A DNA stretch of 64,000 bases. It comes from Lunularia cruciata (taxonomy: Eukaryota; Streptophyta; Marchantiopsida; Lunulariales; Lunulariaceae). The stretch's first letter is position 1. Each line of letters opens with the position of its first letter. The notes beneath the pieces are model-generated. The model did not search any database, was not told where the DNA came from, and saw only the letters and a program-made list of their open reading frames with translations. The DNA lies in contig OX419756.1 in the NCBI GenBank assembly GCA_948567375.1, positions 30,084,333 to 30,148,332 on the forward strand, read 5' to 3'. Shown here piece after piece: positions 3,559 to 64,000 of the stretch. Made by a program: the position numbers and the translations under genes.

Positions 3559-3562
3559 TTTT

Positions 3563-31668: not shown

Positions 31669-32327
31669 CGGCAAATATTACTTTTGTGGCAATCAGGTAA
31701 GTAAAGTTTGTTCCCACAGAGATACGAGTTAGAAATGTCTAAATATGAAGCAAAGTAACAATTGCAGTTCTTCTTGAGTTCTTCTTTAATCTCCTAGGTA
31801 GAAACCACACCCAGAAGAGAGTAACAAGCACTGATTTGCAGTCTTGTCACGAAGTAACACTTCTTAATCACAACTCCATCAAATCTTTCCAAACAATCTT
31901 GATTGTGATGATTCATGCTCTCCCAAAAACAACACTTCACTACAAAATGACTTTGCCTCAGAATTGTGTTCCACCCCTCCATTGAAGGCACAACTTCCTT
32001 GATCAAAATTGCTTCACATCAACTTTGCACTATACTCACAAATGTAGAATACTACCAACACTACAATTCCTCTCAGATCTGTCAAGGCATTGCTCCAATT
32101 GCACTTCACTCAAGATCAAACACACAAAATGTATATCAAGGCTGCGGAATCCAACATCCAACAAGCACACTAACTTGCACTTCAAAATTCTCCACACACT
32201 CACAATTACAAAAACAAAGTTGATACTTGGAATCAAGCTCAAGCAATGAGCACTGCTTCACAACACTTCACTTTATCTATTCTCATAAATTATGAGCACT
32301 GAACAACATCTAACTGTGAATGCCACT

Positions 32328-32335
32328 CTTAAATA
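32328..32335 (-). promoter_or_regulatory. TATA box of the family B LTR
   Basis: Minus strand TATTTAAG, 117 nt after the U3 ORF stop. The same octamer is at the same distance in 38247, 54590 and 58104, and as TATTTAAA at 39572-39579. Confidence 0.6.
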
Positions 32336-32451
32336 GTGAAGCAATTGACAGTTCTAACAAAAATATTGTTCTACAATAACTCTTCTAACCTACAAATCTG
32401 GAATAACAATACACCTCTTCATATCTACCTCTTCAAATCATAATTCTGTTA

Positions 32452-34987
32452 CTAATCCGATCCAATGTCTACTTTTTCATCGGCTTTCAAACCTGAACCC
32501 AAAGTAACTTTGCTCACTACTACTCTATCTTCGGGTTTCATAACTCCTAACTCTTCTATCAATTCTACTACTTCTTCACTCTGATCTACAATTGAGGTCT
32601 TGGGTAACCTTTCTACTACATTATCTTCCAACACACTCTTCTCTAAAGTGTCAAATGTCAAATCTGAAGACATTTGCACTCCTACTTCTACAACTTCGGG
32701 TCTTCGTACTTCTTCTACCTCACTACAAAGTTTAGCTAACTCTATCCTAATCAGGTCTAGTCTGAGACACACATTGTCTCCCACCTCTAGCATCTTCCTA
32801 TCTACATGATCTTGCAGCCGGATTAACAAATTATTCAACTCGGTGTCCTTCGCCTTCCTCTTACGTGTTTCCTGCACTAGCAACTTTAACTCGTGCAGCC
32901 TTGCTTCTTTGAGTTTACACCCCACCTCCATACTCAACATGGCCTTAATTTTTTTAACAACACCTTCTACTTCACTAGTTTCTTTCATCACCGTACACTT
33001 TTCCTTCTTCCTCTCTTCTTCTAATTCACTACGACACATCTGAAGCTCATCTTCAAACTCAACTTTCAATGCTTCCTTCTCCTTTTGATGTACATCAAGT
33101 TGTTCCTTGGCCTCGTGCACCAACCCTCTCAAATGATCTTCTTCTCTACTACCCTCCGTCAACTCTTGTTGCCAGGCCCGATCTTTCTCCGCTGCCCTCT
33201 TCTTAAGGCTCTCCAACTCTTGCTCCATCACCGCAACAATTGGAGTGTATTAATTCAACATGCACCGCTGCAAGTTCTCCCTTCAATCCCACAGTCATCG
33301 CAGTCATATCCTTCACTTCCTCACGACTCTTGACTAGCTCTTCCCTTGTCACCTCAAAGTGCTAACTCCGAAGAACCTCCTCAACCCCAAGTTCTTTGAC
33401 TTCCATCTCCACTCTTGTCAGCTTACTTTGCAACAACAAAGTTTCAGCACTCCAAGCTTTTACCACCGCTAATTCATTGGGTACGTTGAGCTTGGCACTT
33501 ATCATCTCCAACTTCTTCTCCTACAACATTGCCAACAACGGGCATACTACTCTGGACAAATAGTCCACTCCTTCGCTCCTTGCATCCTTGGCTCAGACTT
33601 CGGGTTCTGACTCTTCTATACTTGATATCTTGCTCCGAAGTCAAGATCTTTGCACCTTCAAGGTTTCCTCCTCAGAACTTTCTCCCTCCTTCTAAGGAAG
33701 GTTACTGGGCCCCATTGCTAATGCACTCAGAATCTTCTCATGCTTGGCAGCTTGAGGTTGTGCTTCAACTTCTTCTTCTTTCTTACTGCACCATTCCAGT
33801 ATGGAAACCTTGGGGCTCGGCTTTCTGACATCTTCCATTGGTTGTACCACTTCCTGAACTTCCCCCTCACCTTTGCTGCCGCTACTCAATTCTTAGCTTT
33901 GTAGCGTAAACTCCTCTTCTTTGCCTGACACTCCTCTCTTTGATCCAGTTTCTCCTTTTGATTCTTCTTCTTCCTCCTGCACGACTTCCTTCGACTTCAC
34001 CATCACCGCCACCGGGTTAAGCCTTGAAACTTTCTGGGGTTGTACAATCGCAACCCGACTCTCAGGCTTGGTCCTCTTCCTTGCCCTTGGAAGGTCAATT
34101 GCTATGATCTTTTCTCTCCCACTCTCTTTATAGTACCTATCCCCCTCTCTCACTCTCTCCACATAATATCACTCAACTACATCAACTTCCTTGTGCAAAT
34201 CTGGATGAAAGTGCGACCTCATTCAACTTTGCTCTTCCAAAGTCAGTAAGCTCAACCCTAAATAAAAATGCGCTGCGAATGGCACAAAATAGTGTGGTGG
34301 TATATCCATTCTCCACCCGGAAATCATCAGCCCCACTCTCTGATGTAGGCACTTTGCTCAATCTACTACCTCTCCCACAAACATTTGGTGAGAGAACACC
34401 GCCTGTTGCATAGTAACATAGGTGGTTCGCTCTAGCTTGAACATGGCCATCATCGCGCTTACAATTCCTCTTCGCTCAGGATCTCTATAGCTATCCACCT
34501 TATACCCATTCTTTGTGCGGGGTCGATTGAACGACTTCCTAACTTTGGCAATTTCTTCTGAAGCATCACACCTCTGATAGAAGGTGGTACCTCCTACCTC
34601 TCTGGCTTCCTTTCCCAACACTACTCTCCAATCCGCCTCCGTCCATCAAGCGGGATTCCCTCTCTTCCCCTCATGCTTCGGCCCATCCTTGCAATTGTTG
34701 GCCGCAATTTCTACAATGAAACCTAGAAAATTGAAATTCTAGTTCCAGGTCAAGAACGTGATACAAAGTCTTGTCAAGGCTTTGATCCGCATTATAACCT
34801 CTAATCAAAAAATTGTAAGCCTTCTCACTGCACTCTGCTTGCTCACTTTTGGTGCCATCGTGTGCTTCCTCACTTTTCTCTTGTGGAAGATCGTCCCCAA
34901 AATCCTAACCCACTCCTCTTCCTATGGATTTATGATCTGCATTACTTCGGGTTGACTTTGAATAGGCACCAAGTAGCGGCTGGACAT
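32452..34987 (-). pseudogene. U3-encoded ORF, long form (about 845 codons)
   Basis: ATG at 34987 (MSSRYLVPIQSQ) to TAG at 32452-32454. N-terminal domain about residues 60-290: LTRLCITFLTWN, WTEADWRVVLGKEA, YKVDSYRDPERRGIVSAMMA, ERTTYVTMQQAVF, PPHYFVPFAAHFYLGL and SHFHPD. A basic patch (RARKRTKPE) and a Glu/Ser-rich acidic region follow. The last 260 codons (33231-32452) are uninterrupted: a long heptad-rich coiled coil (ELESLKKRAAEKDRAW) and a conserved tail ending KADEKVDIGSD. At least eight stops interrupt the upstream part, so this copy is dead. No membrane segment, protease, RT or integrase motif is seen. I do not recognise the family. It is neither gag nor env. Confidence 0.7.
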
Positions 34988-36169
34988 GGCTCCTTCTTCT
35001 TGTGCACCTTGTAATTTTATAGTCCTATACTAATCAATCACTCTTCAGTCACTACTCCTCTCAAATTTCTGATTCGGTGAAGTTGTTGCCTGTCACTATC
35101 AAGAAGTTCTTGATCTCGAGGTCATTACTTTCTTCCCTCGTACTTTCTTGATTACGCCGACTCTGAAGAAGTTTGTTATAGGTTCTTCGGATCCGCTCGT
35201 GCCGCCCGATATGAAGTCTCTCTCTCTCCATCTTTGTCTTTGGCTTCTTCTTCACATCTTGACCCGAAGTCAAATTTGGGTTCATGCTGACAAGGCCAGT
35301 CCGAGTACTTTGCCTTATAACCCAAAGCCATGTTACCTCAGCTTTTTTCCCGAAGACTCTTTTCTTTGCCTTCTTTGGTCATACAGGTGCAATCCGACTT
35401 CTCTATACACTTCTTCTTCTCCATTTCCAAAAAAAACAAAAAATGAGAGTACCACATAAGCACTCTGAAGTAATGAGGGAGGATTTAGTAAAGTGTCACA
35501 AGGAGGCATTCATACTGTTATGTTGTTCAATATTCATAATTCTTGAAGATAGATCAAGCAAAGTGTTCATTTCAACGCTCGTTGCTTGAGCTTGATTTTG
35601 AGTATCAACTCTATGTTTTTGTTTGTGAGCGTGTGAAGAATTTCAAAGTGAAAATCAGTGTGTTTGTTGGATGTTGGATTCCACAGTCTTGATCTTCATT
35701 CTGTGTGTTTGATCCTTAGTGAAGTGTCATCAAAGCAATGCCTTGATAGATCTGAGAGGAATTGTAGTGTTGGTAGTATTCTGCAGTTGTAAGTGCAGTG
35801 CAATGTTGATGTGAAGCAATTTTGATCAAGGAAGTTGTGCCTTCAGTGGAGGGGTGGAACACAATTCTGAGGCAAAGTCGTTTTGTAGTGAAGTGCCATC
35901 TTCAAGAGAATCTGAATCATCACAATCAAGATTTTTTTAGACAAAATTTGTTATGTTGTGATTATAAGGGTGTGAATTTGTGACAAGTTGTCAATATTGT
36001 GTGCTTGTTACTCTCTTTTGGGTGTGGTTTCTACCCAAGAGACTAAAGAAGGACTTAAGAAGAACCACATTGGTGATAGTTGCTTTGTATTTGACCAATT
36101 TTGACCAGTATCTTTGCGGGAACAAACTTTACTTACTTGATTACCACAAAAGTGATATTTATTGTCACA

Positions 36170-36433
36170 ACAGGCCTAAGATTTCTCAACTCTTTCCTCA
36201 AGCCAAACACCTAAGAATAATACCAAGTCAATACACTAGAATCCAAAATAGTGGTGCTCATCTTTTCCACTTCCTCTAAAGTAAGGTCCTCTCTATCTTA
36301 GCTATGACTAACTTTAGCTAATCATAACTAATGTAGAACCATCATTTATCTCTATATTAATAATATCTCTCAAGTACTTGTAATACCAAGCTAAATATCA
36401 CAATACCATACACATGCACGAATAGGTGTTACA
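36170..36433 (-). repeat. A4 3' LTR, U3 remnant (264 bp)
   Basis: An inverted A LTR end (GGTGTTACA at 36433) running back to the point where B2 was inserted. The other LTR part must lie left of the window, beyond B1. Confidence 0.82.
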
Positions 36434-36999: not shown

Positions 37000-37004
37000 T
37001 GTGA

Positions 37005-38902
37005 TGTGGTGCCCACATTTTTCATTTTGGACAAGTTTTAAAGAAGAAGTGCATTACTAAAACCAAATTGAACCCAAATGGAGAAGAAACAATGAGAAGT
37101 CTATATTTTGATTTGACCCAAGGAAGTCTACTTCATGTAAGAGGAAGAAGGACTCGGACTGGATCAGACCCAAAGAAGCTTACTTTGTGTCAGAGGAAGA
37201 AGAAGAAAAAGGAGATCAGATGCCAAAGGAAGGTCCTTGCATCGGAATGGAGGTTGTAGGTCAGGATTCTTGCAGGGGCCATATCTCAATGATGACAAGT
37301 CCAAATTGTGCATGCTATAACTTGTTGGAAGCACATTGTTTAGAGCTTTCCATTTCCACCAAAATTGCTAAGTTTAGATGAATGTAGCAGAAGTTATTTG
37401 CATTTGAAGTTTTGGAAGTAAATGTATAAAGTAGTTGAGTATCTTTGGGTTAGTGTCTTTGGGTTCATAGTACTTTGGGTCTATACAACTTTGGACTTTG
37501 GGTTTACATGACTTCGGGTTTACAAGACTTTGCCTCAAGACAAAAATGACTAGATTTGAGGTAGTCGGACCTCGAAGTGCAATGAAGGTGACTTCTGGAA
37601 TCTTGCTAGAGGCATCATAGGAGGTTAGAGTAGAGAAAGAAGATATTTAGGATACCCATGACTTCAATTTCAGTTCTGATTGAAGATAGGATAGAATTAG
37701 AGGAGAAATACCAATAGTGAACAAACCCGAAGTGCAAGATCAGACTGTAAGTGTCTTTGGGTCAATAACATGAGCAATTAAGGGAAAGTGGATTGCAAAT
37801 TGAAGGTGTACATAGTGTACCCATGCTTTCAATTATAATTCTTGATGATGACATAGTAGAATTAGTAAAGGAATTGATAGCAGTTAGACCCAAAGTAAGA
37901 GAGATAGGAGTGCAAGTGTCTTTGGATTTGACATTTGACACTTTAGAGAAGGGTGAGTTAAAAGATAGAAATTTAGAAGGATTAACTATGATAGGAATTG
38001 TAGATCAGGAAAGAGAAATGTTAGAATTAGTAGAGGAGTTAAAAGTTATGAAACCTGAGGACAGAGTAGTGGTGAGTGAAATTACTTCAGGATTGCAAGC
38101 CAAGGAAGAAGAAGACATCGGATCAGAGTAGTAAGAGTTTGAGGTAGGAAGAGGTAGATATGAAGAGGTGCATTGTCATTTTGGATCTATAGGTTAGAAG
38201 AGTTGTTGTAGAATGGTATGTTTGTTAGAACTATCATTTGCTTCACTATTTAAGAGTGGCATTCACATGAAATTGTTGTTCAGTGCTCATTATTTTTGAG
38301 AATAGATAAAGCAAAGTGTTGTGAAGTAGTGCTTGTTGCTTGAGCTTGATTCCAAATATCAATTTTGTGCTTGTGTTTGTGAGTGTGTGGAGAAATTCAA
38401 AGTGAAAATCAGTGAGCTTGTTGGATGTTGGATTCGGTAGCCTTGATCTTCATTCTGTGTGTTTGATCTTGAGTGAAGTGCAATCAAAGCAATGCCTTGA
38501 CAGATCTGAGAGGAATTGTAGTGTTGGTAGTATTTTGCATTTGTGAATGCAGCGCAATGTTGATGTGAAGCAATTTTGATCAAGGAAGTTGTGCCTTCAG
38601 TGGAGAGGTGGAACACAATTTTGTGGCAAATTCGTTTTGCAATGAAGTGCCATTTTTGGGAGAGCCTGAATCATCACAATCAAGATTGTTTGTAAAAGAT
38701 TTGATGGAGTTGTGATTAAGAAGTGTTAATTTGTGACAAGATTGCAAATCAATGCTTGTTACTCTCTTCTAGGTGTGGTTTCTACCCGAGAGACTAAAGA
38801 AGAACTACATGTTACTGTTTGACTTTGTATTTTGACATTTCTGATTAGTATCTCTACGGGAATGAACTTTACCGCAAAAGTGATATTTGCCGGGTTGTCA
38901 CA
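37005..38902 (+). repeat. Solo LTR of family B, short form (1898 bp), direct
   Basis: Starts TGTGGTGCCCAC at 37005 and ends GGGTTGTCACA at 38902. TSD TGTGA at 37000-37004 and 38903-38907, which is the first five bases of the inverted LTR it entered. TATTTAAG lies at 38247-38254. Most of the U3 ORF is deleted. Confidence 0.9.
37793..38131 (+). pseudogene. C-terminal piece of the U3 ORF in the short LTR
   Basis: An open stretch of 112 codons ending EEEDIGSE and TAG at 38129-38131, 116 nt before TATTTAAG. It carries the conserved segments VSLDLTFDTLEKGE and VMKPEDRVVVSE found in the other LTR ORFs. The upstream part, 37005-37792, is degenerate. Confidence 0.55.
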
Positions 38903-39695
38903 TGTGACAACTTGGCAAAGATCACTTTTGCGGTAATCAAGTAAGTAAATTTCATTCCAGCAAAGATACAATTTAGAATTGGTCAAATATGGAGTCAAAC
39001 AATAACAAGTAGTTCTTTTTGGTTGTGTCTTTAATCTCTCAGGTACAAACCACTCCCAAAAAATAGTAGCAAGCACTAATTTGCAGTCTTGTCACAACAT
39101 TTTGTCACCCATAATCACAACTTCATCAAATCTTTCCAAACAATCTTGATTGTGATGATTTATTCTCTCCCAAAATAGCACTTCACTACAAAACAACTTT
39201 GCCTCAAATTGTGTTCCACCCCTCCACTAAAGGCACAACTTCCTTGATCAAAATTGCTTCACATCATTATTGTATTGCACTTGCAATTACAAAATACTAC
39301 CAACACTACAATTCCTCTCAGACCTATCAAGGCATTGCTCCTATTGCACTTCACTCAAGATCAAACACATAGAATGAAGATCAAAGCTATGGAATCCAAC
39401 ATCCAACAAGCACATTAATTTACACTTTGAAATTCTTCACACACTCACAAACACACACACAATGTTGATACTCATAATTAAGCTCAAGCAACGAGCATTG
39501 AAATCAGCACTTTACTTTATCTATTCTGAAAAATCATAAGCACTAAACAACAACATACTACGAATGCCACCTTTAAATAAGTAGAGCACTTGACAGTTAT
39601 CTAACAACTATACCATTTCCTAACAACTCTTCCTACCTGTAGATCCAAAATGACAATGCACCTCTTCATATTTGCCTCTTTAAATCTCAAAATTT

Positions 39696-40249: not shown

Positions 40250-40324
40250 TGTAACAATATGGAGTTTAGAGACAAAGTTAGTCGGGCTTACAAAGTAGAG
40301 AAGAAGAAAAAATAAGTAGGTAGC

Positions 40325-40461
40325 TTCTAGAAGCTTCTAACTAGCTTAGCTTGCATGCCAAGTAGGCGGCTTCTAGAAGGAAGCTTCTTGAGAAGCTTCC
40401 TAGTTAACTTGGCTTGCACTTCAAGAAAGCGGCTCAAGGAAGCTTCTTGAGAAGCTTCAAG
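40325..40461 (+). promoter_or_regulatory. Heat-shock-element-like cluster in the C1 LTR
   Basis: TTCTAGAAGCTTC at 40325-40337 is a perfect three-unit TTCnnGAAnnTTC heat-shock element. Two more GAAGCTTC palindromes follow, including AGGAAGCTTCTTGAGAAGCTTCCT near 40378-40401, an 11-bp inverted repeat with a TG spacer, and a similar one near 40438-40459. They lie just upstream of the TATA box. Function is inferred from the consensus only. Confidence 0.5.
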
Positions 40462-40477
40462 AGTCTTGTATGCTACC

Positions 40478-40485
40478 TATAAATA
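40478..40485 (+). promoter_or_regulatory. TATA box of C1 5' LTR
   Basis: TATAAATA, repeated at the same place in the 3' LTR (near 45563). Confidence 0.65.
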
Positions 40486-40590
40486 CCAAGGCCGAAGCTC
40501 ATGCTAGGCATTTGGAGTTTTCTCTCATTCAAGTGTCCCAATGTGAGTTTCAATTCTCTTATTTCTCTCCTTGGTTTTGGTCTTTTACAT

Positions 40591-40602
40591 TGGTATCAGA
40601 GC
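40591..40602 (+). other. Primer-binding site of C1 (initiator tRNA-Met)
   Basis: TGGTATCAGAGC one base after the LTR end, the standard site complementary to the 3' end of plant initiator tRNA-Met. Confidence 0.92.
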
Positions 40603-40860
40603 AGGAATGGGATGGATGGAATTTATAGACCACCAAATCCACTTCTGCCAAACCATTGGGACTTTCATGTCCAGATATTACCAAAGCATCATTTGACACA
40701 ATTCATCATCTCACGCTTTGGGCAGGATTTTCTACATATGATCACCGTGTCAGAGGAACCCTTGATACTTCTAGTTGTAACTTATGGAGAACGGTGGACG
40801 TGTTGTATCTATGTGTTAGTCAACTAGATAAAATGAGGGTAGTGGAATAGAGTAGTAGCA

Positions 40861-41742
40861 ATGGCGGCAATACCGGATGTTATCCTTGCAATGCAACAAC
40901 AAATCAAGCATCTTACTCGATTGTTGGATGAACAAGACCAACAACGACGAGAACAGATATACAGAGCGCCAGTTCGAGATGGAGAAGATCACATTTGATT
41001 TCCAAAACCCAAGGTGTTTGAAGGCAAGAATCTTCCAAGCACAATGGAGAATTTTGTGTTTGATTGTGAATGTTACTTTGAAACCACCAATCTTCAAGAC
41101 GAGCGGAAACAAATTCTCTTGGCTTCTAGCCAATTGGATGGCGTGGCAAAACTTTAGTGGCAATTCCGAGTAGAAAGAGCTGAACAACAAATTGTTACAC
41201 CAATTTTGACATGGGCAGAATTCAAGGATGCAATACTTGGTCAATTTCAGACTATAAATGCCACCCGAGCTGCACGAGATAAATTGGCGGAGTTGAGAAG
41301 CTACATCACACAATTTCAGAATATCATCATGCAAATTCCAGATATCCAAGAAGGTGAAGTTCTGGATCAATTTGTGCAAGGATTGAAGTCACGAACCAGA
41401 TTGGAGGTGACCATACGAGAGCTATAGAATGTAGAAGAAGCCATGCAATTGGCTGAGCATTTTGATTCCTTAGTTGCGACAACTTGGTCTCGACCTTGAC
41501 CTACACAAAAACTACCATTACCACGAGTGGAAGAACCGGTACCAATGGAGATTGATGCTATCCAACAAAGACCACTTGGCACAGCAGATAGAGAAAGATT
41601 ACAACAAAATGGAGGTTGCTTTTATTGTTGCCAAGTTGGACATTGCATTGCTGAATGTCCACTTAGGAATGGGCAATCTCGACAAGTTGCCCAGATGGAG
41701 TTTGTAGAACATAATGATCAAGCAAACAAAGAATCCCAATAG
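40861..41742 (+). pseudogene. C1 gag
   Basis: ATG at 40861 (MAAIPDVILAMQQQIKHL). The capsid region includes TWAEFKDAILGQF near 41205 and LDQFVQGLKSRTRLE near 41362, typical of chromovirus gag. One knuckle, CFYCCQVGHCIAEC, is near 41612-41653. In-frame stops near 40996, 41155, 41425 and 41498 interrupt it. It ends at TAG 41740-41742. Confidence 0.82.
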
Positions 41743-44640
41743 GAGATTTCGAGCCGCCTATTGGAAGCTTGATTAGTTCCAATGGGATTGAAGGCTCGAC
41801 CTATGCAAGTTTGCTTCACTTGCAAGGTACGATATCTAATCAGGGTTGTAGGATTTTGGTTGATTCTAGAAGTTCAAAGAATTGCATATCTATGCAAGTA
41901 GCAAAGGAATTGGGTATTCCTATCAAGCCAGTGATTGGAAGTAGTTTGATGATGGCGGATGGTAGAAAAGGTTCTACATTCCTCATCTTGCATCCTATTA
42001 CCTTCAAGATTGGGAAGGAGTATTTGGAGTGTATGAGGTTTGTAGTGGCACCTCTACACTATGATATCATTCTGGGTCTACCTTGGCTTGAATGTCATAA
42101 GGTTCAATTCGATTGGACCCGACATCAAATTCAAGTACAACACCAAGGTAGGAATTTCCGATTAGGTTGTCTGGCACCTCTAAGTAAGACACCTAAGAAT
42201 GTCCCAAGATGGGAAGTTTGTTGAGAAGGTAGCCATAGAGCAAATTTGGAAGGGAGATGAGTCCCAAGATGGGAAGTTTGCCAAGAAGGCAACCATGGAG
42301 CAAGCTTGGAAGAGAGATGAGTCCCTAGAAGGGAAGTTTGTTAATGAAGCAGCCATAGAGCAAACTTTGGAGGAAGATAAGTCTGTATTTGCGGTGTGGA
42401 TCAAGCCAATTGCACAAGAACAATCTGAGGAGGGCCAGGTGTCGCATCAAGCAACGGTTGATCAGATAGTTAAGGAGTTTGCATATGTGTTTCCGGATGA
42501 TCTGCCCAAGGGATTACCCTCTAATCGAGGTATGCCCTTCAAGATTGAGTTATTGTTAGAGAGTACTCCAGTGCGTAGACCAATCTATCGGCTCTCACAA
42601 AAGGAGTTGGAGGAGTTGCGAACAACACTAGAGAGTTGTTGGAGAAGGATTTCATATAACATAGTACCTCTCCGTGGGGAGCACCGGTACTATTTGTTCC
42701 AAAGAAGGATGGAGAACTTTGTTTCTATATTGATTATTGTGGGCTTAATAAGCAAACCGTGAAGAATGCATATCCCTTGCCTCGGATTGATGACCTGCTT
42801 GACCAATTAAGTGGAGCACGCTACTTTTCCAAGTTGGATCTTCGTAGCAGCTATTGGCAAATTCCTATTGAAGGAGAGGACGTGCAAAAGACTACCTTTC
42901 GCACAAGGTATGGACATTTTGAGTGGAGAGTTCTACTATTCAGACTCACTAATGCTCCAGCAGTCTTCATAGATCAGATGCATCGGGTGTTGGAGGGACT
43001 ATTGGATCAGTCCGTGGTAGTGTTCTTAGATGATATCTTAATCTATAGTAGGATAGAGGCAAAACATAGGAATCATGTGCGAGAAGTCTTAAGACGACTA
43101 TGACAATGGAAATTTTACTCCAAGAAGTCAAAGTGTGCTTTTTGGCAGAAAGAGGTTACCTTCTTGGGTCATAAGATCTCATCAGAGGGGATCAAGATGG
43201 AAGAAGAGAAGACCAAGGCCATTATTGATTGGCCTACCCCAAAGGATGCTACAGAAGTATGAGCATCCAATGGATTGGCCAGTTTTTTCCAACGGTTCAT
43301 CCACTATTATGCTCACGTGGCTGCACCATTGACTGACCTCTTGGGAAAGAACTTGAGCTTCCAGTGGACCACCAAGCATGAAGAAGCATTCCAGAAGTTA
43401 AAGCATATGGTGTCTTCAAGACCTATTCTTCAACCATATGATCCTCAACTACCTTGTGTGGTTGATTTTGATGCTTCTAACTTTGCAACATGAATTTCTA
43501 GATGGACTACATCCTATTACCTTTGTGTCTCGCCGACTAAATACAGCTGAAAGAAATTACTCTGCTTGAGATTGGGAACAACTTGCAATGGTATATGCCA
43601 CCAAGGTATGGAGGCATTATCTCTTGGGGAAACAAGTGATCATGCGAACTGATCACAAACCATTGTTGTAGACCTTACACTTGGAGCACATGAAGAGTCG
43701 GCATCATTGATGGGAAGAGAAACTCCAATTGTTTGACATCAAACTTGAGTACAAACCAGGTCGGTTCTATGTCATCCCTGATGCTCTATCACGACGACTT
43801 GATTTGAAGGATCTCCCTCTCATCACGGCGGCAATAACAACTGTGTCCATTGACCTTAAGGTCCATAATGAGTTTCAATCAGCTCTACAACAAGATCCCT
43901 TCTTCCAAATGGTACACGGTTGTCTGACAGCACGCGACAAGAAGTACAACACCTTCTCTTTCAAGGAAGGCCTTTTATTCCATGCAGACTAGATCTATGT
44001 TCCAGCCAAAGGTGATCTTCAACTTTTGTGCCTTCAAGAAGCCCATGATTTACCAATAGCTGGTCACATGGGAGTGGACAAGACCTTGGGCACCCTCCAA
44101 CACCAATGGTGGTGGCCCAACATGACACGAGATGTTTGAGACTTTGTTTGATCATGTGAAAGTTGCCAACGGAACAAGGCCAGCAACCAGAAGCTGAGTG
44201 GACTCCTTCAACCACTCGCCATTCCATCCGCTTGTTGGTAGCATGTGAGCTTGGATCTCATTACATCCTTGCCAAAGACAAAATAAGGACACACCGCAAT
44301 TGTGGTGTTTGTGGATAAGCTTAGTAAGAAAATCCACTTGGCACCAACCTGTGATACCGTGGATGCTCCAACCTTAGCGCAAATCTACTTTGACAATGTC
44401 TTCAAGCACCATGGGATGCCACGAGTACTCATCTCCGACCGAGATCCTTGATTTACCGAGAAGTTTTGGCAAGCACTCTTCCAAACACTCAACACCAAGC
44501 TTGCTTTATCCATGGCCTATCATCCTCAAACTGATGGACAAACCAAACGTGCCAATCGTACATTGGAGGATATGTTGCGGGCCTTTGTCAATGTCCACCA
44601 TACCAACTGGGATGAATGTCTTGCAATTGCAGAATTGCCT
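41743..44640 (+). pseudogene. C1 protease, RT, RNase H, integrase core
   Basis: The protease reads ILVDSRSSKNCIS near 41855; the expected DSG is DSR, so the active site is damaged. [26 protein letters not shown] near 42768-42840 and [12 protein letters not shown] near 43016-43050 (catalytic LDD). RNase H: VDFDASNFAT near 43461 and RTDHKPLL near 43647. Integrase: finger with CESCQRN near 44155, LDLI near 44252, SDRDP near 44437 and the Glu region in RANRTLEDML near 44548-44577. Stops and frame changes are many (for example 42226, 42640, 43260, 43492, 43990 and 44448). Lineage below chromovirus is not assigned. Confidence 0.82.
42201..42380 (+). repeat. 60-bp tandem repeat (3 copies) between C1 protease and RT
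   Basis: Units start at 42201, 42261 and 42321 with GTCCCAAGATGGGAAGTTTG-like sequence. The exact 60-bp period encodes a 20-residue repeat of the form SQDGKF...EQ.W..DE, in frame. It forms an acidic linker before RT. Confidence 0.88.
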
Positions 44641-45269: not shown

Positions 45270-45330
45270 AATGCACAGATGGTCATCAAGGACTTTGAAG
45301 CTTTACTAGCGATGAGGACGTCACTAACTA

Positions 45331-45341: not shown

Positions 45342-45344
45342 ATA

Positions 45345-52522: not shown

Positions 52523-55268
52523 TGTGGTGCCCACATTTTTTGTTTTTTTTTGTTTATTAGGATTTGAGGGAAGAAGTAAACATGGAAAGCTGAATTGTGG
52601 AAGAAGGAATGGATGGAAGTGACTTCGGAGGAAATCCAAAGAAGTCAAGATCAGATCTGATGATGGAGGTACTCAAGAGAGGGGTACAACAAAAGAAGTC
52701 CAAAGAGCATCATCTTTGGATTGGAAAGTGCAGGCGATACAAAGACCGTCTAACAACCTTGGTATGTGGCAAGAAAGTACACTTCAAGAAATGGCGGAGG
52801 CAAAAGAAGCATGTCTTGACAGTGACAGGACAGCAACATGCAGAAGAGGGGAAGTTGACTTTGAAATCAACTGAAGAATGATTGCAATTCAGGGTAATAT
52901 AAAATTGCAATTGTGCAAGGACAAGTTGAATATGCCAAGTAAATTTCCAATTCCTCTAAGTAGTTGTCTTGCAGTAATGCGTGTCAAGAAGCCAATTGAG
53001 AGTGCAATTTTCCAAAATCCAAAAGGGGTTAGAGTGTCTCGTCTAGGAGAAGGCATAGTCTTTTAGTGCCAAAGAACAAGAGAGCAAATCATGGCAAAGA
53101 AGGTCACAAATGCTCTAGCAGTGCGAAGTTTTGCAATTCATAGGTTAGATGTTGTAGCCAAAATCAAAGTCTTGAATAGACTTTGTATTACATTTTTTGC
53201 ATGGAACTAGAATTTTAGTTTCCGAGGAGTGATGGTAGAGATAGCTGCTAATAATTGTGAGGAAGGCCCTAAAGTCAAAAGGAAGAGAGGCAATCTGGCT
53301 CGGATCGACAATCAGATTGGAGGTTAGTGTTGGGGAAGGAAGCAAGAGAACTGACGGGGATCACCTTCTATCAGAAGTGTGATGCTTCAGAAGAAATGGC
53401 GGAGATCTGAAATTTGTTCTTTGCTCCGAGAACAACAAATGGTTACAAGGTGGAGTCCTATCGGGACCTGATTAGATAAAGTATTGTGGGGACAATTATG
53501 GCCATGTTCAAACCAGAACGGATGACTTACGTGAACATGCAACAAGTGGTCTTCTTCCACCAGATGTTTGCAGGAGAGTTGTGAGTCAAGAGAGAAGGAA
53601 CTGCAGAAGCAAGCTGAGGAATTGAAGGAGCATACAATGTTGCTAAGAAAAATGAAAGAGGAAGTCAGTGATGTGCGCATCGAGAATATTCATTTGAAGG
53701 TGACGGCAGCAATAATGGAGCAGGATTTGGACAGCTTGAAGAAGAGTGCAGCCAAGAAGGATCAAGCATGGCAGAGAGAGTTAGCAATCATGCATGAAGA
53801 AGAAGAAAGATTGCACAAGCTGGTACAAAGTGCTGAGTAACAAAGTTCACAGTATGCGGAGGAGAAGAAGATGCTCGCTGCTGAGTACAAAGATGAGTTG
53901 AAGATGTACTGTGAAGAGCTGAAGGCAGATCGATCTCAAGGGTATGAGTCGGAATCAGTAGGAGAAGTGGTAGGAAAGTTGCAAGCAATCTTGAGCATGG
54001 AGGCTGAAGGGAGATTGGAAGAAGAACGTCTACATGAGCTAAAGTTGCTCGTACAGGAAACTTGGAAGAGAAGAGCTAAAGACGTAGATATGAACACTTT
54101 GTTGATACGATTAAGGGAGTGAGTAGATAGGAAAATGTTAGAAGTAGGAGACAATGTAAGTCTCAGATTGGATTTAGTTAAAATAGAGTTAAAGAGAATT
54201 AAGAGTAGTGTGACAGCGGAGAGGAAGTCCAATGTTGCAAAAGTTGGAATACAGGTGTCATTGGACTTGTTATTTGACACATTAGAGAAGAGTGAGTTAG
54301 GAGATAAGGAAGTTGATAGATTACCCATGAGCTCAATTGTAGATTGTAGTGAAGAAGTAGTAGAAGTAGTGAAGGATTTGTTAGAATCAGACATACCCGA
54401 AGAAGGAGAAGTGATAGGAAGATCATTGGGTTTGAAAGCTGATGATGAGGTAGACATCGGATCGGGGTAGTAACAGTTTTGAGATATGAAGAGGTAGATA
54501 TGAGGAGATGGATTGTCAGTTTGGATCTGCAGGTAGGAAGAGATGTTAGGAAGCAGTGCATAAGTAGGAAGAACTGCGGTTTGCTTCAGTATTTAAGGAG
54601 AGCATTCGCAGTACTATGTTGTTTAGTATTCAAATTTATGAAGATAGATAAAGCAAATTGTTGTTTTCAATGCTTGTTGCTTGAGCTTAATTCCGATTGT
54701 CAATTTTGTGTTTTTGTTTGTGAGTGTGTGGAGAATTTCAAAGTGCAGGTCAATGTGTTTGTGGATGTTGGATTCCACAGCCTTGATCTTCATTTTGTGT
54801 GTTTGATCCTGAGTGAAGTACATTGGAGCAATGCCTTGATAGATTTGAGAGGAATTGTAGTGTTGGTAGTATTTTACATTTGTGAGTGCAGCACAAAGTT
54901 GATGTGAAGCAATTTCAATCAAGGAAGTTGTGCCTTCAATGGAGGGGTCTAACACAAATCTGAGGCAAAATCGTTCTTTGCAGTGAAGTGCCATCTTTGG
55001 GAGAATCTGAATCATCACAATCAAGAGTTGTTTGGACAGAGTTTGCCATGTTGTGATTATGTGTGGGTGTATTTGTGACGAGTTGTCAAGATTGTAGCTT
55101 GTTACTCTTTCCTAGGTGTAGTTGCTACCTAAGAGACTAAAGATGCAACCAAGAAGAACTACATGTTATTTTTTGACTTTGTATTTGACTAATTTTGAAT
55201 CGTATCTTTGCGGGAATGAACTTTACTTACTTGATTACCGCAAAAGTGATATTTGCCGGGTTGTCATA
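52523..55268 (+). repeat. Solo LTR of family B in A3 integrase (2746 bp)
   Basis: Starts TGTGGTGCCCACA at 52523 and ends GGGTTGTCATA at 55268 (CA changed to TA). TSD ACATT at 52518-52522 and ACATC at 55269-55273; the uninterrupted A1 sequence has ACATC. TATTTAAG lies at 54590-54597. Confidence 0.92.
52932..54470 (+). pseudogene. U3 ORF with internal deletion (LTR 52523-55268)
   Basis: ATG at 52932 (MPSKFPIPLSS) to TAG at 54468-54470, 120 nt before the TATA box. N-terminal domain: VAKIKVLNRLCITFFAW near 53155-53205, then a frame change, and KPERMTYVNMQQVVFFHQMFAGE near 53510-53575. The acidic middle region is missing: the frame jumps to the coiled coil (LQKQAEELKEHTMLLRKMKE, 53590-53840). The C-terminal part is well kept, with LHELKLLVQETWKRRAKD, SLDLLFDTLEKSE and the end DDEVDIGSG. 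Confidence 0.65.
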
Positions 55269-55782
55269 ACATCATTGGGACAAGAAGATTCATGCAGTTT
55301 TGTGGGAGTATAGGACAACCATGAAGACTTCCACCGGATATTCTCCATTTCAATTGGTATATGGGATTGAGTCTACCTTACCTATTCACTTTGATCTTCC
55401 TACCTTCCAAAGCATTCATAGGAGATTAAAGAAAGCACAAGGAGGTGATGCAGAGAAGTCAATGAAGGATCAACTCATGGAGTTGGAAGAGGCAAGAGCA
55501 GTTGCTATGGTTTGAGTGGAGCAAGCCCAAAGGAAACAAAAGGAGAGCTATGAGAAGAAGCAAGGCAAGAAGAAGGTGGAGCTTTTCAAAGAAGGTGATT
55601 GGGTAATGTTGTTTGATTCCATTCGATTCAATAGAGTGCAAAAGAAGTTTTTGCCTAAGTACTTTGGACCTTTTATAGTGGAGAAAGTGTGGGGCAATTG
55701 CACCTATGATCTCAAGGAGTTGTGAGGAAGACACTTTGATAGGATTAACCATGATAAGTTGAAGATGTACCATAGAAGGTAG
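55269..55782 (+). pseudogene. A3 integrase C-terminal part
   Basis: It resumes after the B LTR: KIHAVLWEYRTTMKTSTGYSP, IESTLPIHFDLPTF and KYFGPFIVEKVWG. TGA near 55513 (CGA in A1) and TGA near 55723 interrupt it. It ends TAG 55780-55782, and TGGGGGTAAA (PPT) follows at 55821-55830. Confidence 0.84.
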
Positions 55783-56261
55783 AGAGACCTTCACTTTGAG
55801 GACAAAGTGAAAACTTAGTCTGGGGGTAAATGTAACACCCATTTGTGCATGTATGTGGTATTGTGATATTTAGCTTGGTATTACAAGTACTTAAGAGATA
55901 TTATTTATATAGAGATAAAGGATGGTTCTTTATTAGTCATGGTTAGCTAAATTTAGTCATAGCTAAGATAGAGGGGACTTTACTTTAGAGGAAGTAGAAA
56001 AGATGAGCACCACTATTTTGGATTTTAGGTTGTTGACTTGGTATTATTCCTAGGTGTTTGGCTTTGAGGAAAGAGTTGAGAACTCTTTGGCCCGCAAGCC
56101 TTTTTGTTTTGGATTCTTCTTTAGTCCAAGGATAGCCCATGTGAAGGAATCCTTGACTTAGTGGTTGGGTCAAGATAAGGTCACATGCTAGTGGAACATG
56201 CACATATGAATAGATATTCCTTTCTACTTTTTGACTTTACTTGACTTTTAGTCTAGTAACT

Positions 56262-58780
56262 TGTGGTGCACACATTTTTTGTTTTTTTTCAAATTTTAGG
56301 AGAAGAAGTGTATAGAGAAGTCGGATTGCGCCTATATGGTCAAAGAAGGTGAAGAAAAGAGTCTTCAAGATGAAACCCGAGGTAACGTGACTTTGGGTCA
56401 TAAGGCAAAGTACTCGGAAATGCCCTGTCAGCATACAACCCAAAGTAAATTGTCTTTGTATTGGGGGGAGCTCAACCCAAGGCAAAGTATGGTGGTAATC
56501 GAGTCGGAGGACGAAGACTCAGAAGAAGATGCCGAGCTAAAAACTGAAGACTTGGAACATGAGGAGGAGCCTGAGCTAACGCTGCGGAGTGGAGATACAA
56601 GTAGCGATAGTGATGAAGGGGGAAACATGACCTCAGCACCAGCAGCTGATGACTACAAAGAAGCAGTGCCAGCCAAGATGGAAGCCAAAGACAACACACA
56701 GTTGGAAGACAAAGTAATTGTGCCCAAAGAAAAGAAGATCGCAGTACAACGAGGAGTTTGCTCAAGACGTAAGGCGAAGTGTGAAGAGGGGCCGAGTAAA
56801 GCAAAGGAAGAGGTAGGAGAAAGCTCGGGAAGTGAGGCTTTGATTCCGATAAAAGACTGCAGAGGAGAAGGTGAGTATTGGGTGAAGAAGGGGTAAGGAA
56901 GGAGATTTCTATGCAGGAAGAAGTAGTTGCAAGAGATGGAGTGGAGTATCTGAGGGAGGTGGTGTGCCCATTGTTGGTGAAATTGGAGCACAGGAAGAAG
57001 GAGATGTAGTCAACTTGTCTAGAGGTAAAGACTGTATTGCAGGTATTAGTGCAATTAGAAGAAGAGAACTCGGAGTTGAAGAAGAGTATAACCCAAGGTG
57101 AGGAGGAAAGAGAAGTACTGCGAGCGGAGGCAGTATAGAGAAGTCAGGTAATCAAAGACCTGAAGAGAGAAGTAAGTTATCTAGAGGATCTTGTGAAGAA
57201 GAGTGACATAGCAAGGGAGAGACAAGTAGTGGAGTATGAAATCTTGAAACAGTAGTTTGCTGATTCAAGAGTAGAAGTAATCCATGTTATGGCGAGAGTA
57301 GCAGCAAAGGATCAAGAGCTCAATAGAGTTACTTTGTAGTCAGGAAGAGAAGGTTGTTCAGAAGGAAAAGGAGAAGGAGACGGTGAAAGTTGAGTTCAAA
57401 GAGGAGTTGGCAATGTACAAGGAGGACTGGCTTGCAGATTGAGAGCGGGAGAGAAAAATAAGATTGGAGCCAGTGAAGGAGATAGTCCTCAAGATGAACG
57501 CAATGTTGAGTACATAGGCCAGCATTCAAATTGAAGAGACGAGACTACATGAGTTGAAGTTGTTAGTGCAGGAGATGAGGCAAAGACAGGCAAAAGACAC
57601 TGATTTGAATGCCTTGTTGATTAAGTTAAGAACTCATGTAGACAGGAAGATATTAGAAGTAGAAGACAACATTTCAATTAGATTAGACTTAGTGAAAATA
57701 GAGATAGAAAAGCTTTGGAAGGATGTTAGAGCAAAACCCGATGTAGATAACATAGGAGTACAAATGTCTTTGGAATTACTAGTGGAGACATTAGAGAAGA
57801 GTGGATGAGGAGATGAGGAGTTAGATAGATTACCCACTAGTGGAATTTCATATCAGGAAAAAGAATTGCTGGATCTGGTAGAAGAAGTAGAAGATGTGAA
57901 ACCCGAGGATAGAGTAGTAAGAAGTAAATTTACTTTGGGTTTGGGTTTGAAAGCCGATGACGAAGTAGACATTGGATCGGAGTAGTAACAGATTTGAGAT
58001 TTGAAGAGGCAGATATGAAGAGGTGCATTGTCATTTCAGATCTGCAGGTTTGTAGAGTTGTTAGGAAGAAATACATTAGGAAGATAAATATCAATTGCTT
58101 CACTATTTAAGAGTGGCATTCACATTATTATGTTGTTCAGTGCTCATTATTTTTGAGAATAGATAAAGCGAAGTGCTATGAAGTAGTGCTTGTCACTTGA
58201 GCTTGATTCCAAGTATCAGCTTTGCAATTGTATTTGTGAGTGTGTGAAGAAATTTGAAGTGCAAGTCAGTGTGCTTGTTGGATGTTGGATTCCATAGCCT
58301 TGATCTTCATTTTGTGTGTTTGATCCTAAGTGAAGTGCAATTGGAGCAATGCCTTGATAGATCTGAGAGGAATTGTAGTGTTGGTAGTATTTTGCATTTG
58401 TGAGTGTAGTGCAAGGTTGATGTGAAGCAATTTTGATCAAGGAAGTTGTGCCTTCAATGGACGGGTGGAACACAATTCTGAGGCGAAGTCATTTTGCAGT
58501 GAAGTGCCGTTTTTGGGAGAGCCTGAATCATCACAATCAAGATTGTTTGGAAAGATTTGTTGGTGTTGTGATAAAGGAGTGCTAATTTGTGACAAGACTG
58601 CAAATCAGTGCTTGTTACTCTCTTCTAGGTGTGGTTTCTACCTGAGAGATTAAAGATGCAACCAAGAAGAACTGAAATTGTTACTTTGCTTTGTATTTGA
58701 CCAATTCTGACTTGTATCTTTGCGGTAACAAACTTTACTTACCTGATTACCGCAAAAGTGATATTTACCGGGTTGTCACA
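56262..58780 (+). repeat. Solo LTR of family B in the A3 3' LTR (2519 bp)
   Basis: Starts TGTGGTGCACACA at 56262 and ends GGGTTGTCACA at 58780. A perfect TSD, TAACT, lies at 56257-56261 and 58781-58785. TATTTAAG is at 58104-58111. Confidence 0.94.
56336..57985 (+). pseudogene. U3 ORF lacking its N-terminal domain (LTR 56262-58780)
   Basis: An open run of 187 codons (56336-56896) joins the region before the ORF start directly to the acidic part (VVIESEDEDSEEDAELKTED). Compared with 62244 onward, about 1.2 kb between two AACCC(A/G)AGGC repeats is missing. KKIAVQRGVCSRRKAK, a basic patch, follows. The coiled coil (LVQLEEENSELKK near 57045) and the C-terminal part (VDRKILEVEDNISIRLDLVKI) are interrupted by a few stops. 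It ends DDEVDIGSE, TAG 57983-57985, 119 nt before TATTTAAG. Confidence 0.65.
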
Positions 58781-59049
58781 TAACTTGAGTTACTACGGTA
58801 ATTAGTAACTTTGGTACATAACTATTTCACAAGTATATAAACAAGGGGTGAGGAAGTACTCATCATCCTTTCATTTGCAAGTATCTCTCTCTCATTGAGT
58901 TCTCTAGTGAGCAATGTCTTGAGTCTTGGAGTGTTAGCCTTGGAGGAGTATGATGGAGTTGGGGTTCCTTGCCTTCTTAGTCCATGGTGCGCTACCATAA
59001 TACCCATCTGAGGTTCATCTTGAGTGAGAGACAGGTTGGCTCACAATAC

Positions 59050-60700: not shown

Positions 60701-61111
60701 CTCTTTGTCTCTATCCCAAATCTTATAGTGGCATGCCTCCTCCGTCTTTCTTCACTTTGAGTTTCTACCAAGAAATCACACCTCCTGCATGCTCAAGTCA
60801 TTGTCAATTTCCCTCCGCCCATAAGCCAGCCGTTTTATTTTGTGTGGTACCTTCTTGAATGTTCAACTCCAAAGGAAAGTTGTTACATTGTCCTCGCCTT
60901 GGGTGAGCACCCCCGAGCCAAAGTCTCGTTACTTTGGGTTGAATGCTGATAGGACCAATCCGAGTACTTTGTCTATTGACACAAAGTTACTTTACCTTGG
61001 TTTACAACCTGAAGACACCATTCTTTGCCTTATGATGCCATAGAAGTGCAATACGACTTCATTTGTACACTTCTTCTTCCAAAAATAAGAAAAAAAAATG
61101 TGGGTACCACA

Positions 61112-62243
61112 TTTAGCTCCCTCCATTTTTGCATCTTTGGCCAACATCATGCACAAGATCTGATTGGTTCTCTCTACCAATCCATTGGAATTTGGCTTAT
61201 AGGATGTAATTACTCTATGTGTGGTAGAGAAATGTCATAGCATGGCTGTCATGATGCTTCCTATAAACTCTCCTCTATCAAAAACCAACTCCAAAGGGCA
61301 TCCAAACCTAGTGATAATGTGTTCATAAAGAAATTGACCAACTTCATCTTCATTCTTGTCCCTCAATGGTCTAGCCTCAACCCACTTGGTAAGGTAATCA
61401 GTAACTACCACAATATACCGATTGTTCCTTGGGACCCCAAGGAACAATTGGTACTCTATTAAGAGGACCTACAAAATCAATTCCCCACTTCTCAAAAGGT
61501 CCTAGCAATAGAATTGATCTAAGTGGTGGAGTGGATGTAGACTTTCTAGCAAAAGCTTGACAAACATGACAAGTTTTGCAATAATCAAGACAAATCCTTG
61601 AAAATCCCTCTGGTAACTTGCATCTAAAATCTTGAAAGCAGTCACATTTTGTGCAAAGTGTCCTCCACATACTAAACCTTCATGAAACTCCTTTATGAGT
61701 AGGATAGACTCTTCCTTATCCACTGCTCTTCAAAGTAGACCATCTGCTCCCTGGTGAAAAAGAATATCCTCCACCATTGTGTAAGGTCTACATCTTGTTG
61801 CAAGGGCCTTCCTCTCCCTTTGCTCCCTAGCATGCATCCCTTTTGGATAGTAACCCCTTGTCACAAAATCCACAATCTCCTTGTAACCATTGGAACCTCT
61901 TGAGTGATTCAGATTGTCATGAGCTCCTCGTCCGGGAAGGAATCATCCACTGGTTCATCTTCATCATGATCATGGGGCCTAGATAAAAAATCTGCATTTG
62001 CATGTTTCTTCCTTGGCCTATCTTCAATGGTGTAGTAATACTCAGACAAGAGTATCATCCACCTTGCTAGTCTCCCTTCCACATTAGGCTTGTTGAAGAT
62101 GTACTTCAAAACCTTGTGATTTGTGACAATGGTGGCTTTCTCTCCAAGTAGTGTCTAAACTTCTTGAGACCAAAGATCACTGCCAATCCTTCTCTCTCTA
62201 TGACAGAGTAGTTCTTTTCTGCTGAAACCATCTGCCTACTAGC
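61112..62243 (-). pseudogene. A4 RNase H and integrase core
   Basis: The minus strand, from the B LTR insertion at 62243 to the one at 61112. RNase H: ASRQMVSAEKNYSVIEREGL near 62240-62180 and EDRPRKKHANADFLSRPHDH near 62020-61960. Integrase finger: CKTCHVCQAFARKS near 61590-61550, then WGIDFVGPLNR near 61480, VFDRGEF near 61270, and LAERTNQ changed to LVERTNQ near 61180. TGA at 61235-61237 is the stop shared with A1 and A3. It is colinear with 36999-36482, which lies 24 kb away. Confidence 0.85.
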
Positions 62244-64000
62244 TGTGGTGCCCACATTTTTTGTTTTTTTCAAAATAAAGCCGAAGAAGTGTATAGAGAA
62301 GTCGGATTGCGCTTGGTTGGCCAAAGAAGACGATGAAAATTGTCTTCGGGGTGAAACCCAAAGTAAAGTGGCCTCGGGTCATAAGGCGAAGTATTCTGAA
62401 ATGCCGTGTCAGCAAACGATATGAAGTAAATTGTCTTCGGATCGAGAAGGGGAGCTCAACCCGAGGCAAAGACAGTCTAACAACCTTTCGTCGGGGCGAG
62501 AAACTCAAGAAGGGGCGGTTTCAAAATTGGCGGCTCATACGCGTGAAGGTGAGGCGACAGTAATGGGTGCATGCAGGAGGTGTGATTTCTTGGTAGAAAC
62601 TCGAAGTGACGGAAGACGAAGAAGTGCAACTCTATAAAAATTGAGATTGCAATGACAAAATGTCAAGCAATTTTCCTTCGCCGTTGAGGAGTCATCTTGC
62701 AGGTGATCGGGGAAAGGGAAATAGAGTTGGACTTGTGTTAGTGCGTAAGGGGGAAGTCGAGAGAGAGAAATCAAGAGACCGAAAGAAAGCAGAAGAGATG
62801 GGAGGAGGGAAGAAGAACTCCGAATTTGTAGTGAGAAATCATGCAATTCAGAGATTACATGTAGTAGCAAGGATCAAAGTCTTGAGCCGACTTCGGATCA
62901 CCTTTTTGGCATGGAAATGGAACATAAGCTTTCCAGGATTCATGACAAAAATCATCGAGAGTAAATGTCTCGATGGTCCCGAGGAAGAAGGGAAGAGAGG
63001 AAATCCGGCTCGTTGGACAGAGTCGGATTGGAGACTCGTACTCGGGAAGGAGGCAGGCTCGGAGCAGGGGCCCACGTTCTTGGGGAAAGGGGAGATAGCC
63101 CAAGAAACTCAAGAGGTGAGAGATGCCTTCTCGTCGAAGAGAACAAAGAATGGGTACAAGGTAGAAAGTTACAAAGACCCTGTCAAGAGAGGAATTGTGA
63201 GTGCTTTGATGGCAATCCTGAAGCCGGAGAGAACTACCTATATGATGTAACACCAAGCGGTGTTCTTTCACAAATTGTTTGCAGGAGAACCAATTAATTG
63301 GGCGAGGTGTTTTCATGGGAGAACGAGGTAGATGGTGTGGAATCTGCAGGATAAGTCCCCTCCACATTATATTGTGCCGTTTGCAGCGCATTTCTATCTC
63401 GGGCTCAATTTGCTGAACTCAGCGGAGCGGAATCGGATGGTGTCGCACTTCCATCCGGATGTGCAAAAGGAAGTCGATGCGGAGGAGCAGCAATACATTC
63501 TTCAAATCTGGAGCGCAGACGATTACTACTCGAAGACAGGGAAGAACGTGGAGGTCGTTGAAAGTACCCTGACGAAGAAGAGAACTCTGCAAGCAGACGC
63601 CGAAGAAAACAAGAAACCTCGGAAGGTGCAGAGAAATAACCCGAGGCGAGGAATGGTGGTGATTGAGTCGGAAGATGAAGACTCGGAAGGCGAAGCCGAG
63701 CTCAAGACGGAGGACTCGGAACGTGAGGAGGAACCTGAACTGACACTGCAGAGTGGAGATACAAGCAGTGATAGTGAAGTCGGTGGAGAAATGACCTTGG
63801 CACCAACGCCTGAAGAATACGAAGAAGAAATTCAAGCCGAGGTAAAAGCCAAAGACAATGCAGCGCTGGAAGACGAAGTACCGGTGCTCAAGGAGAAGAA
63901 GATTGCAGTACAGCGAGGAATTTGCTCGAGACGTAAGGCAAAGGGGGAAGCGGGACCGAGTAGAGTGACAGAAGAAGTAGAAGGAAGCTCGGGCAGTGAA
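62244..64000 (+). repeat. Family B LTR, 5' part, least decayed copy (runs off window)
   Basis: Starts TGTGGTGCCCACA at 62244 in A4 RNase H; the 5-bp flank CTAGC at 62239-62243 should be repeated at the other end outside the window. It is clearly richer in CpG than the other copies (for example TCGGAAGATGAAGACTCGG near 63667), as expected for a recent insertion. Whether it is a solo LTR or the 5' LTR of an element cannot be seen. Confidence 0.88.
62660..64000 (+). pseudogene. U3 ORF, best preserved N-terminal half
   Basis: ATG at 62660 (MSSNFPSPLRSHLAGDRGKG); 447 codons stay in one frame to the window edge, with only two stops (TAA 63248-63250 and TAG 63329-63331). The basic N-terminus is followed by the core domain: VVARIKVLSRLRITFLAWKW, WTESDWRLVLGKEA, YKVESYKDPVKRGIVSALMA, KPERTTY, FAGEPINWARCFHG, PPHYIVPFAAHFYLGL and SHFHPD. 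Then comes an acidic block, IESEDEDSEGEAELKTEDSE, and a basic KKIAVQRGICSRRKAK segment. No signal peptide or membrane segment is visible. The function is unknown; a nuclear or nucleic-acid-linked role would be a guess from charge alone. Confidence 0.72.

Follow-up and report, generated by a model that had tools for sequence, protein, structure and literature searches.

A large conserved reading frame inside the long terminal repeats of a Ty3/gypsy retrotransposon family of the liverwort Lunularia cruciata

Why should the long terminal repeat (LTR) of a plant retrotransposon contain a reading frame of about 850 codons? The question is raised by a 64,000-nucleotide stretch of Lunularia cruciata (contig OX419756.1; C2:30,084,333-30,148,332; hereafter the window), a nested pile of LTR retrotransposons in which the LTRs of one family of the Ty3/gypsy class, family B, hold parts of the same frame. 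The genome of this species is described as about twice the size of those of other liverworts, with bursts of Ty3/gypsy elements (PMC9985172), and we searched its assembly (565.8 Mb, 74 contigs) for further copies. The frame proved to be under purifying selection in replicating lineages, with neutral decay after insertion, and to form part of a divergent cassette carried on a nearly shared chassis.

Family B elements have LTRs of ~3.8 kb that run from TG to CA, 5-bp target-site duplications (TSDs), a primer-binding site (PBS; TTTTTGGCACC..TGCC) after the 5′ LTR, a polypurine tract (PPT), and gag with a zinc knuckle followed by reverse transcriptase (RT), RNase H and integrase, the pol order of Ty3/gypsy. 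In element B2 (plus strand), the internal region (21887..28878) extends from a PBS that follows 21886, presumably of tRNA-Asp type, through gag with its zinc knuckle, RT, RNase H and an integrase zinc domain to a PPT that precedes 28879, and the minus-strand element B1 shows a clean PPT (GGAGGGGGTA) ahead of its LTR start at ~330. These landmarks, the TSDs in the window and 30 genomic copies place the open reading frame (ORF) inside the LTR, as the first-pass annotation had proposed, and its reading of the B2 3′ LTR as following the PPT was equally correct.

Three LTRs have TGTGGT as one terminus and ..CACA or ..CATA as the opposite one, with 5-bp duplications on either side: B-f (31659..35456, minus strand; TAAGT/TAAGC), a complete solo LTR of 3,798 bp inside the B2 3′ LTR; B-a (52523..55268, plus strand, solo; ACATT/ACATC); and B-b (56262..58780, plus strand, solo; TAACT/TAACT), with one mismatch each in B-a and B-f. 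The B-f frame, about 845 codons from ATG to stop (32452..34987, minus strand), has a frameshift near 33250 and in-frame stops, 12 across the 555 codons listed. B-a lacks the PPHY-acidic part (ATG 52932, TATA-like site 52898); B-b lacks the N-terminus and core, and keeps the acidic part from 56474 and a tail, VDIGSE, to ~57985. Six intervals had been annotated at first, and all are LTR parts of one frame, but the first starts at 31659 and another, 37000-61111, is two nested copies, minus-strand B-d and plus-strand B-e. B-d (TSD TTTAG) consists of 61111-59046 (N-terminus, core and acidic part; ATG 60700, TATA-like site 60727), 46043-45675 (start of the coiled-coil-like part), 40249-38903 (coiled-coil-like part, tail and LTR 3′ end) and 37000-37004, and two insertions split it, one of family A (46044-59045) and one with short LTRs (40250-45674). 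B-e (37005..38902; TSD TGTGA) is a short solo LTR with only the C-terminal part of the frame; it sits exactly 5 bases inside the B-d 3′ end, the two LTRs lying tail to tail and resembling one palindromic insertion (37000-38930). Four of the six intervals are thus five solo LTRs with 5-bp duplications. The fifth is B-c (62244..64000, plus strand), cut by the window end, with a TATA-like site at 62633, an ATG at 62660 and one frame to 64000 holding 2 stop codons. The sixth is the B2 3′ LTR (plus strand), in three parts: 28879..29306, immediately 3′ of the PPT (TATA-like site 29267, ATG 29301); 30047..31657 (frame N-terminus, core and acidic part); and 35457..36172 (post-frame region). The B2 5′ LTR (20534..21886, plus strand), truncated on its 5′ side, also holds frame parts and has the same deletion of the coiled-coil-like part and tail.

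A 1-kb B-b query gave 41 matches in the genome, namely itself, 39 copies at 92-94% identity and one short piece (the best 40 of 9,460 candidates). All 39 copies were fetched and 30 kept (LTR 3,754-3,820 bp); the other nine had no recognisable LTR end (L018, L027, L046, L047) or an LTR length outside 3.75-3.82 kb (L023, L028, L031, L036, L043). The kept copies, which are the best-scored end of a large family and not a random sample, are 91-95% identical pairwise and comprise 21 solo LTRs with a 5-bp duplication (13 exact, 8 with one mismatch), 5 LTRs after a PPT and 4 before a PBS. In one complete element (L033/L025; TSD GTGAG), LTRs of 3,782 and 3,799 bp, 95.0% identical, flank ~6.2 kb with gag-pol, and each contains the whole frame span, broken in both. 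Two further LTR pairs were found, one with TSD CAAAA (LTR pieces 94.2, 94.6 and 90.2% identical) and one 94.2% identical over 3.4 kb. Queries from three diverged types returned at least about 40 matches each, counts that do not suggest the single capture of a host gene contemplated in the first-pass annotation.

The frame covers ~845-863 codons of the LTR (~412-2985), and 863 codons at LTR 397-2985 in the 30 genomic copies. Chance is a poor explanation for it, because an excess of third-position differences is confined to the frame and because in one genomic copy this frame contains 3 stops versus 87, 47, 28, 19 and 20 in the remaining five. The order of parts first described was borne out for the N-terminus, core, acidic region and tail: a first ATG (LTR 412 in a recent copy), a second Met kept in five window copies (MGGGKK/MAPK/MALK/MAKK), a core with WTESDW at LTR 766, GIVSA at 943 and SHFHPD at 1195, an acidic stretch (net -13 over 40 residues), a charged C-terminal half that reads as coiled-coil-like, and an acidic tail ending VDIGS. 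Eight of the 30 B-b-type copies (L009-L047) also have an open frame of 101-113 codons at LTR 1-338, where codon periodicity was not seen.

Differences by codon position revealed the selection acting on the frame. Summed over aligned pairs of window copies, which are not independent, positions 1, 2 and 3 differed at 872/3334, 724/3349 and 1519/3341 sites. When one genomic copy was compared with ten window pieces, the frame core gave 159/610, 127/617 and 293/615, the sequence before the frame 68/331, 63/326 and 63/327, and that after it 139/1003, 150/1005 and 160/1006. The third-position excess was present in all seven segments of LTR 410-2985 and in neither flank, and was weakest at 410-547 (20, 22 and 32 of 92). 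The excess recurred among the differences fixed between types (52/205, 39/193 and 99/192 over LTR 550-1200), with the B-b type represented by 30 copies and the B-f type by 8 (B-f itself and L052-L058). A similar third-position ratio was seen in gag-pol when B1 or B2 was set against a genomic element (e.g.,.13/.10/.31). Counts were even for private variants among recent copies (227/217/212), for LTR pair differences (46/37/46) and for the B2 LTR pair (22/216, 29/216 and 26/217), with a slight periodicity for variants common to at least 3 recent copies (120/120/149). The third-position excess between subfamilies, together with the evenness within LTR pairs and among private mutations, is what indicates selection followed by decay. 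The first-pass annotation had looked to the ratio of nonsynonymous to synonymous change (dN/dS) in young copies; constraint is there between subfamilies, whereas recent copies decay neutrally and 30/30 are interrupted, as expected for silenced copies.

Comparison of the two types further revealed how sharply the frame is set off from its surroundings. Fixed differences amounted to 11/167 in LTR 1-180, 18-65% per 60-base window in 181-2940, 4/52 in 2941-3000 and 2/524 in 3001-3660, the comparison leaving out the last ~120 LTR bases. Six of the 8 B-f-type copies were 0.38-0.51 different from the other type in the frame and 0.03-0.11 in LTR 3131-3640, where five B-b-type copies differed from their own majority by 0.03-0.10. 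In the other two B-f-type copies (L054 and L058), the sequence beyond LTR ~3000 is unrelated to that of the remaining copies. The noncoding LTR 240-400 upstream of the frame was 0.54-0.55 different between types. The LTR thus carries a divergent cassette, LTR ~190-3000, made of the frame and ~200 noncoding upstream bases, on a nearly shared chassis of LTR 3′ part and gag-pol, and the frame is far more diverged than the remainder of the element. Elements alike in other respects seem to have traded whole versions of the gene. Divergence of the upstream region and its travel with the gene are what a cognate promoter/regulator pair would show, and linkage alone could also produce them. A comparable architecture is described for crapaud of Podospora, whose subfamilies differ mainly in U3 with R and U5 alike, and for which template switching or gene conversion was proposed (PMC10787394); the variable part is discussed there as promoter/enhancer, with no gene named in the passages concerned, whereas in family B it encodes a selected protein.

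We infer that the frame lies in U3 (the LTR segment upstream of R and U5), our best evidence being a TATA-like site after the frame and the steep loss of subfamily divergence at LTR ~3000-3130. The first-pass placement in U3 stands as to the LTR, and U3 itself is suggested by these two signs. The site, CTAYTTAAG at LTR ~3103, would start transcripts at ~3130; it lies ~120 bases past the stop codon, at the cassette border (~3000-3130). In B-f it is CTATTTAAG (32328..32336, minus strand; LTR 3121), a possible genomic-RNA promoter, with U3 then ending beyond the frame, and TATTTAA is present in 5/7 window copies covering the region. A second TATA-like site lies upstream of the frame, at a distance of 27-34 bases from the first ATG and ~165 from the second conserved Met (TATAAAA at 35015..35021, minus strand, in B-f; LTR 436).

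We tentatively favour, without calling it probable, the reading that family B carries a selected LTR gene cassette in U3, exchanged between elements, whose product is most likely a trans-acting nuclear regulator. The upstream TATA-like site may provide the cassette with a promoter, so that a full element would hold two gene copies and a solo LTR would be a self-standing gene. Exchange would have taken place during reverse transcription, through switching between RNAs packaged together and strong-stop transfer at R. Such transfer links the U3 of one packaged RNA to the R-U5 of the other (PMC10787394), and it predicts a cassette border where R begins; the 5′ side requires another exchange point, near LTR 180-240. 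From its basic patches, strongly acidic stretch and coiled-coil-like C-terminal half, the product might be a nuclear regulatory protein acting in trans on its own LTR type, as a transactivator or an anti-silencing factor; such a role would account for the joint movement of the gene and its upstream region. A bolder form of this proposal, which we regard as doubtful, makes U3 a portable, self-contained module of a promoter region and the cognate protein recognising it, swapped by template switching between elements that share gag-pol and R-U5; types would then compete for one chassis, and solo LTRs would be a dispersed store of genes.

Several observations weigh against the regulator cassette, beginning with the state of the frame. 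It was unbroken in 0/30 genomic copies, which have 3-12 stops in the reference frame (frameshifts excluded from this count). In the B-b type, no codon of 863 is a stop in more than 12/30 copies, which is why its source probably had an open frame. In the B-f type, 13 of 855 codons are stops in at least 2/8 copies, three of them in 6, 5 and 6 of the 8 and several more in 3 or 4, and the last source of this type was probably already interrupted; that it probably last spread with an interrupted frame lowers our confidence. Perhaps it spread with help in trans. B2 is without the C-terminal third of the frame in both LTRs, so the whole protein is not needed in cis. Of the window stops, 20 could be aligned with a sense codon, and one C-to-T or G-to-A change would account for 8 of them, including four at one shared TAG codon. 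Transition rates were 0.241 at CHG and 0.195 at CG sites against 0.108 for all C/G, the CHG excess being expected of methylated plant DNA. The shared TAG, at 34741 in B-f and at the matching codon of B-a, B-d and B2, occurs in 4/5 window copies (TGG in B-c) and is a stop in 4/8 B-f-type copies; readthrough, descent from an already interrupted frame and repeated independent decay of a CHG site were considered for it.

The measures and signals used are also less decisive than they first appear. NG86 values of dN/dS were 0.12-0.27 in 16 of the 22 window pairs that covered 40 codons or more; the remaining 6, from the C-terminal part and four of them with B-e, gave 0.37-0.56. NG86 runs low on these sequences, however: it returned 0.45 for a neutral LTR pair and a median of 0.43 for all 435 recent-copy pairs, against 0.83-0.91 in a context-free neutral simulation. 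Values of 0.12-0.29 between types therefore overstate the constraint; only part of the low NG86 is constraint, and the codon-position counts are the sounder test. These counts too favour third positions weakly among the fixed differences of LTR 1201-2000 (88/224, 109/235 and 124/222). As for promoters, the downstream TATTTAA is present in only 13/30 genomic copies (most others have TACTTAA) and is absent from both B2 LTRs. Transcripts from the upstream site would be practically leaderless, given how near it lies to the first ATG, and the presence of this site in 27/30 copies is not special, since 26% of 8-mers are kept to that extent. Moreover, a nuclear role is suggested solely by composition.

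Homology gave no support to any assignment, in line with the first-pass remark that no family could be recognised. A 446-aa query (two B-c pieces joined by X) and a 9-row alignment returned nothing at E≤10 from a large protein database, in a search that requires relatives to share exact 5-residue words; the pol of family A gave 3,773 matches at E≤1e-20 in the same database, where plant elements, including those of liverworts, are represented. Pfam yielded only matches below curated cut-offs (best DUF4407, E 0.0043, to a coiled-coil-like piece), PHROGs two weak matches (best E 0.012), PDB none at E≤1, and viral contigs searched with one frame piece none. The AlphaFold model of the core had a pLDDT of 39.9, a failed fold prediction. 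A possible likeness of the core to Transposase_28/Transposase_32 was dropped for want of a Pfam match, PF04195 (Transposase_28) being absent from the Pfam matches at E≤1 and at E≤10.

Known systems offer partial parallels. The accessory ORFs of plant Ty3/gypsy elements (Grande gene23, RIRE2, Retand) are likewise conserved family-wide, and gene23 is reported to have its own promoter and a nuclear product (PMC7264820); those of Retand are antisense and carry Transposase_28 (PMC11963269). They are placed in the internal region, antisense between pol and the 3′ LTR (PMC7264820), whereas the family B frame is sense, inside the LTR and without a Transposase_28 match. In the open literature we found no plant LTR described as containing such a gene, most subscription papers being beyond the reach of that search, nor any literature on liverwort genomes with nested LTR elements; in one survey of plant LTR retrotransposons (PMC6317226), the terms "aORF" and "in the LTR" have 0 occurrences. 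The VANC proteins of VANDAL transposons co-diversify with their cis targets. They are the model of a sequence-specific transposon factor that counters silencing in trans (PMC5735166, PMC10398659), and the likeness of the Arabidopsis transposons to family B would be one of proposed function only.

It is quite possible that the product has another role, such as particle assembly, nuclear import or the limiting of rival elements, Sag-like or by copy number. Composition does not settle function, and competition between elements could also produce divergent cassettes on one chassis. Sag of mouse mammary tumour virus, the precedent named at first pass, is indeed an endogenous retroviral protein encoded in an LTR (PMC11998498). 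The location of the family B frame is Sag-like, but the evidence supports its assignment to no protein family. Sag itself is a superantigen, a type II transmembrane protein from a mammalian retrovirus; here a plant Ty3/gypsy element holds a frame of ~850 codons, for which we claim no sequence relation. Pfam, PDB and the protein database (E≤10) gave no sign of superantigen kinship, no direct comparison with Sag having been made. Nothing specific speaks against such roles; the co-exchange of the upstream noncoding region favours one tied to the promoter.

A second alternative, which we find rather unlikely, is that the constant 3′ LTR part beside a variable cassette reflects extreme conservation of R-U5 rather than exchange. 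R-U5 carries transcription, polyadenylation and packaging signals, and window copies differ from the majority there by 0.07-0.23, private decay included. Against it, the internal region is also much closer between types than the frame. One B-f-type element (4.7 kb between two B-f-type matches) was 88.1% identical to a B-b-type one, compared with 91.8-92.4% within the B-b type, and its third positions differed by 0.16-0.17, while the proportion of differing synonymous sites (pS) in the frame was ~0.66.

It is less likely still that the frame belongs to R/U5, genomic RNA starting at the upstream TATA-like site (LTR ~385-436) with the frame as its first ORF and the downstream site irrelevant. The upstream site is found in 5/5 window copies covering the region and in 27/30 genomic copies, a better record than that of the downstream TATTTAA. 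Yet a start there has the leader problem noted above; from ~3100 onwards the LTR has a conserved noncoding part that includes a separate TATA-like site; and the cassette border falls where exchange at R would place it. Finally, we consider it very improbable that the frame is a host gene that was captured and is carried passively, with no advantage to the element. Gene capture by LTR retrotransposons is known (PMC7264820), no intact copy was seen and the B-f type has stops common to most of its copies, but the frame is constrained between diverged types that each returned at least about 40 matches, and no host ortholog or host-like protein was found in the protein database by the search for shared exact 5-residue words.

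The rest of the window documents the same nesting. The truncated 5′ LTRs of B1 (minus strand) and B2 (plus strand) abut in opposite orientation at 20532/20534 (window 20060-21886), which suggests a rearrangement; the B2 gag region has a 201-bp tandem duplication at 98% identity (23061-23459), and a family A solo LTR (23644-24336) lies within the internal region. The third element, at 40250-45674, has terminal repeats of ~330 bp (94.4% identical) and several open frames. Family A is also Ty3/gypsy, the closest named proteins to its pol being from Marchantia polymorpha (75% identity over 74% of the query) and Riccia (66% over 62%), and it includes a young element at 2881-10672 with LTRs (2881-3558 and 9998-10672) that are 99.4% identical.

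What is new here is the divergent cassette of frame and upstream region on a nearly shared chassis. A large conserved gene inside an LTR changes what solo LTRs are, making them possible gene copies and not just promoters, and it changes how an element can spread a trans-acting factor. The pattern of cassette and chassis allows direct testing of the idea that retrotransposons exchange regulatory modules as they are reverse transcribed, and anti-silencing proteins gain a candidate counterpart in the product, one probably found outside flowering plants.

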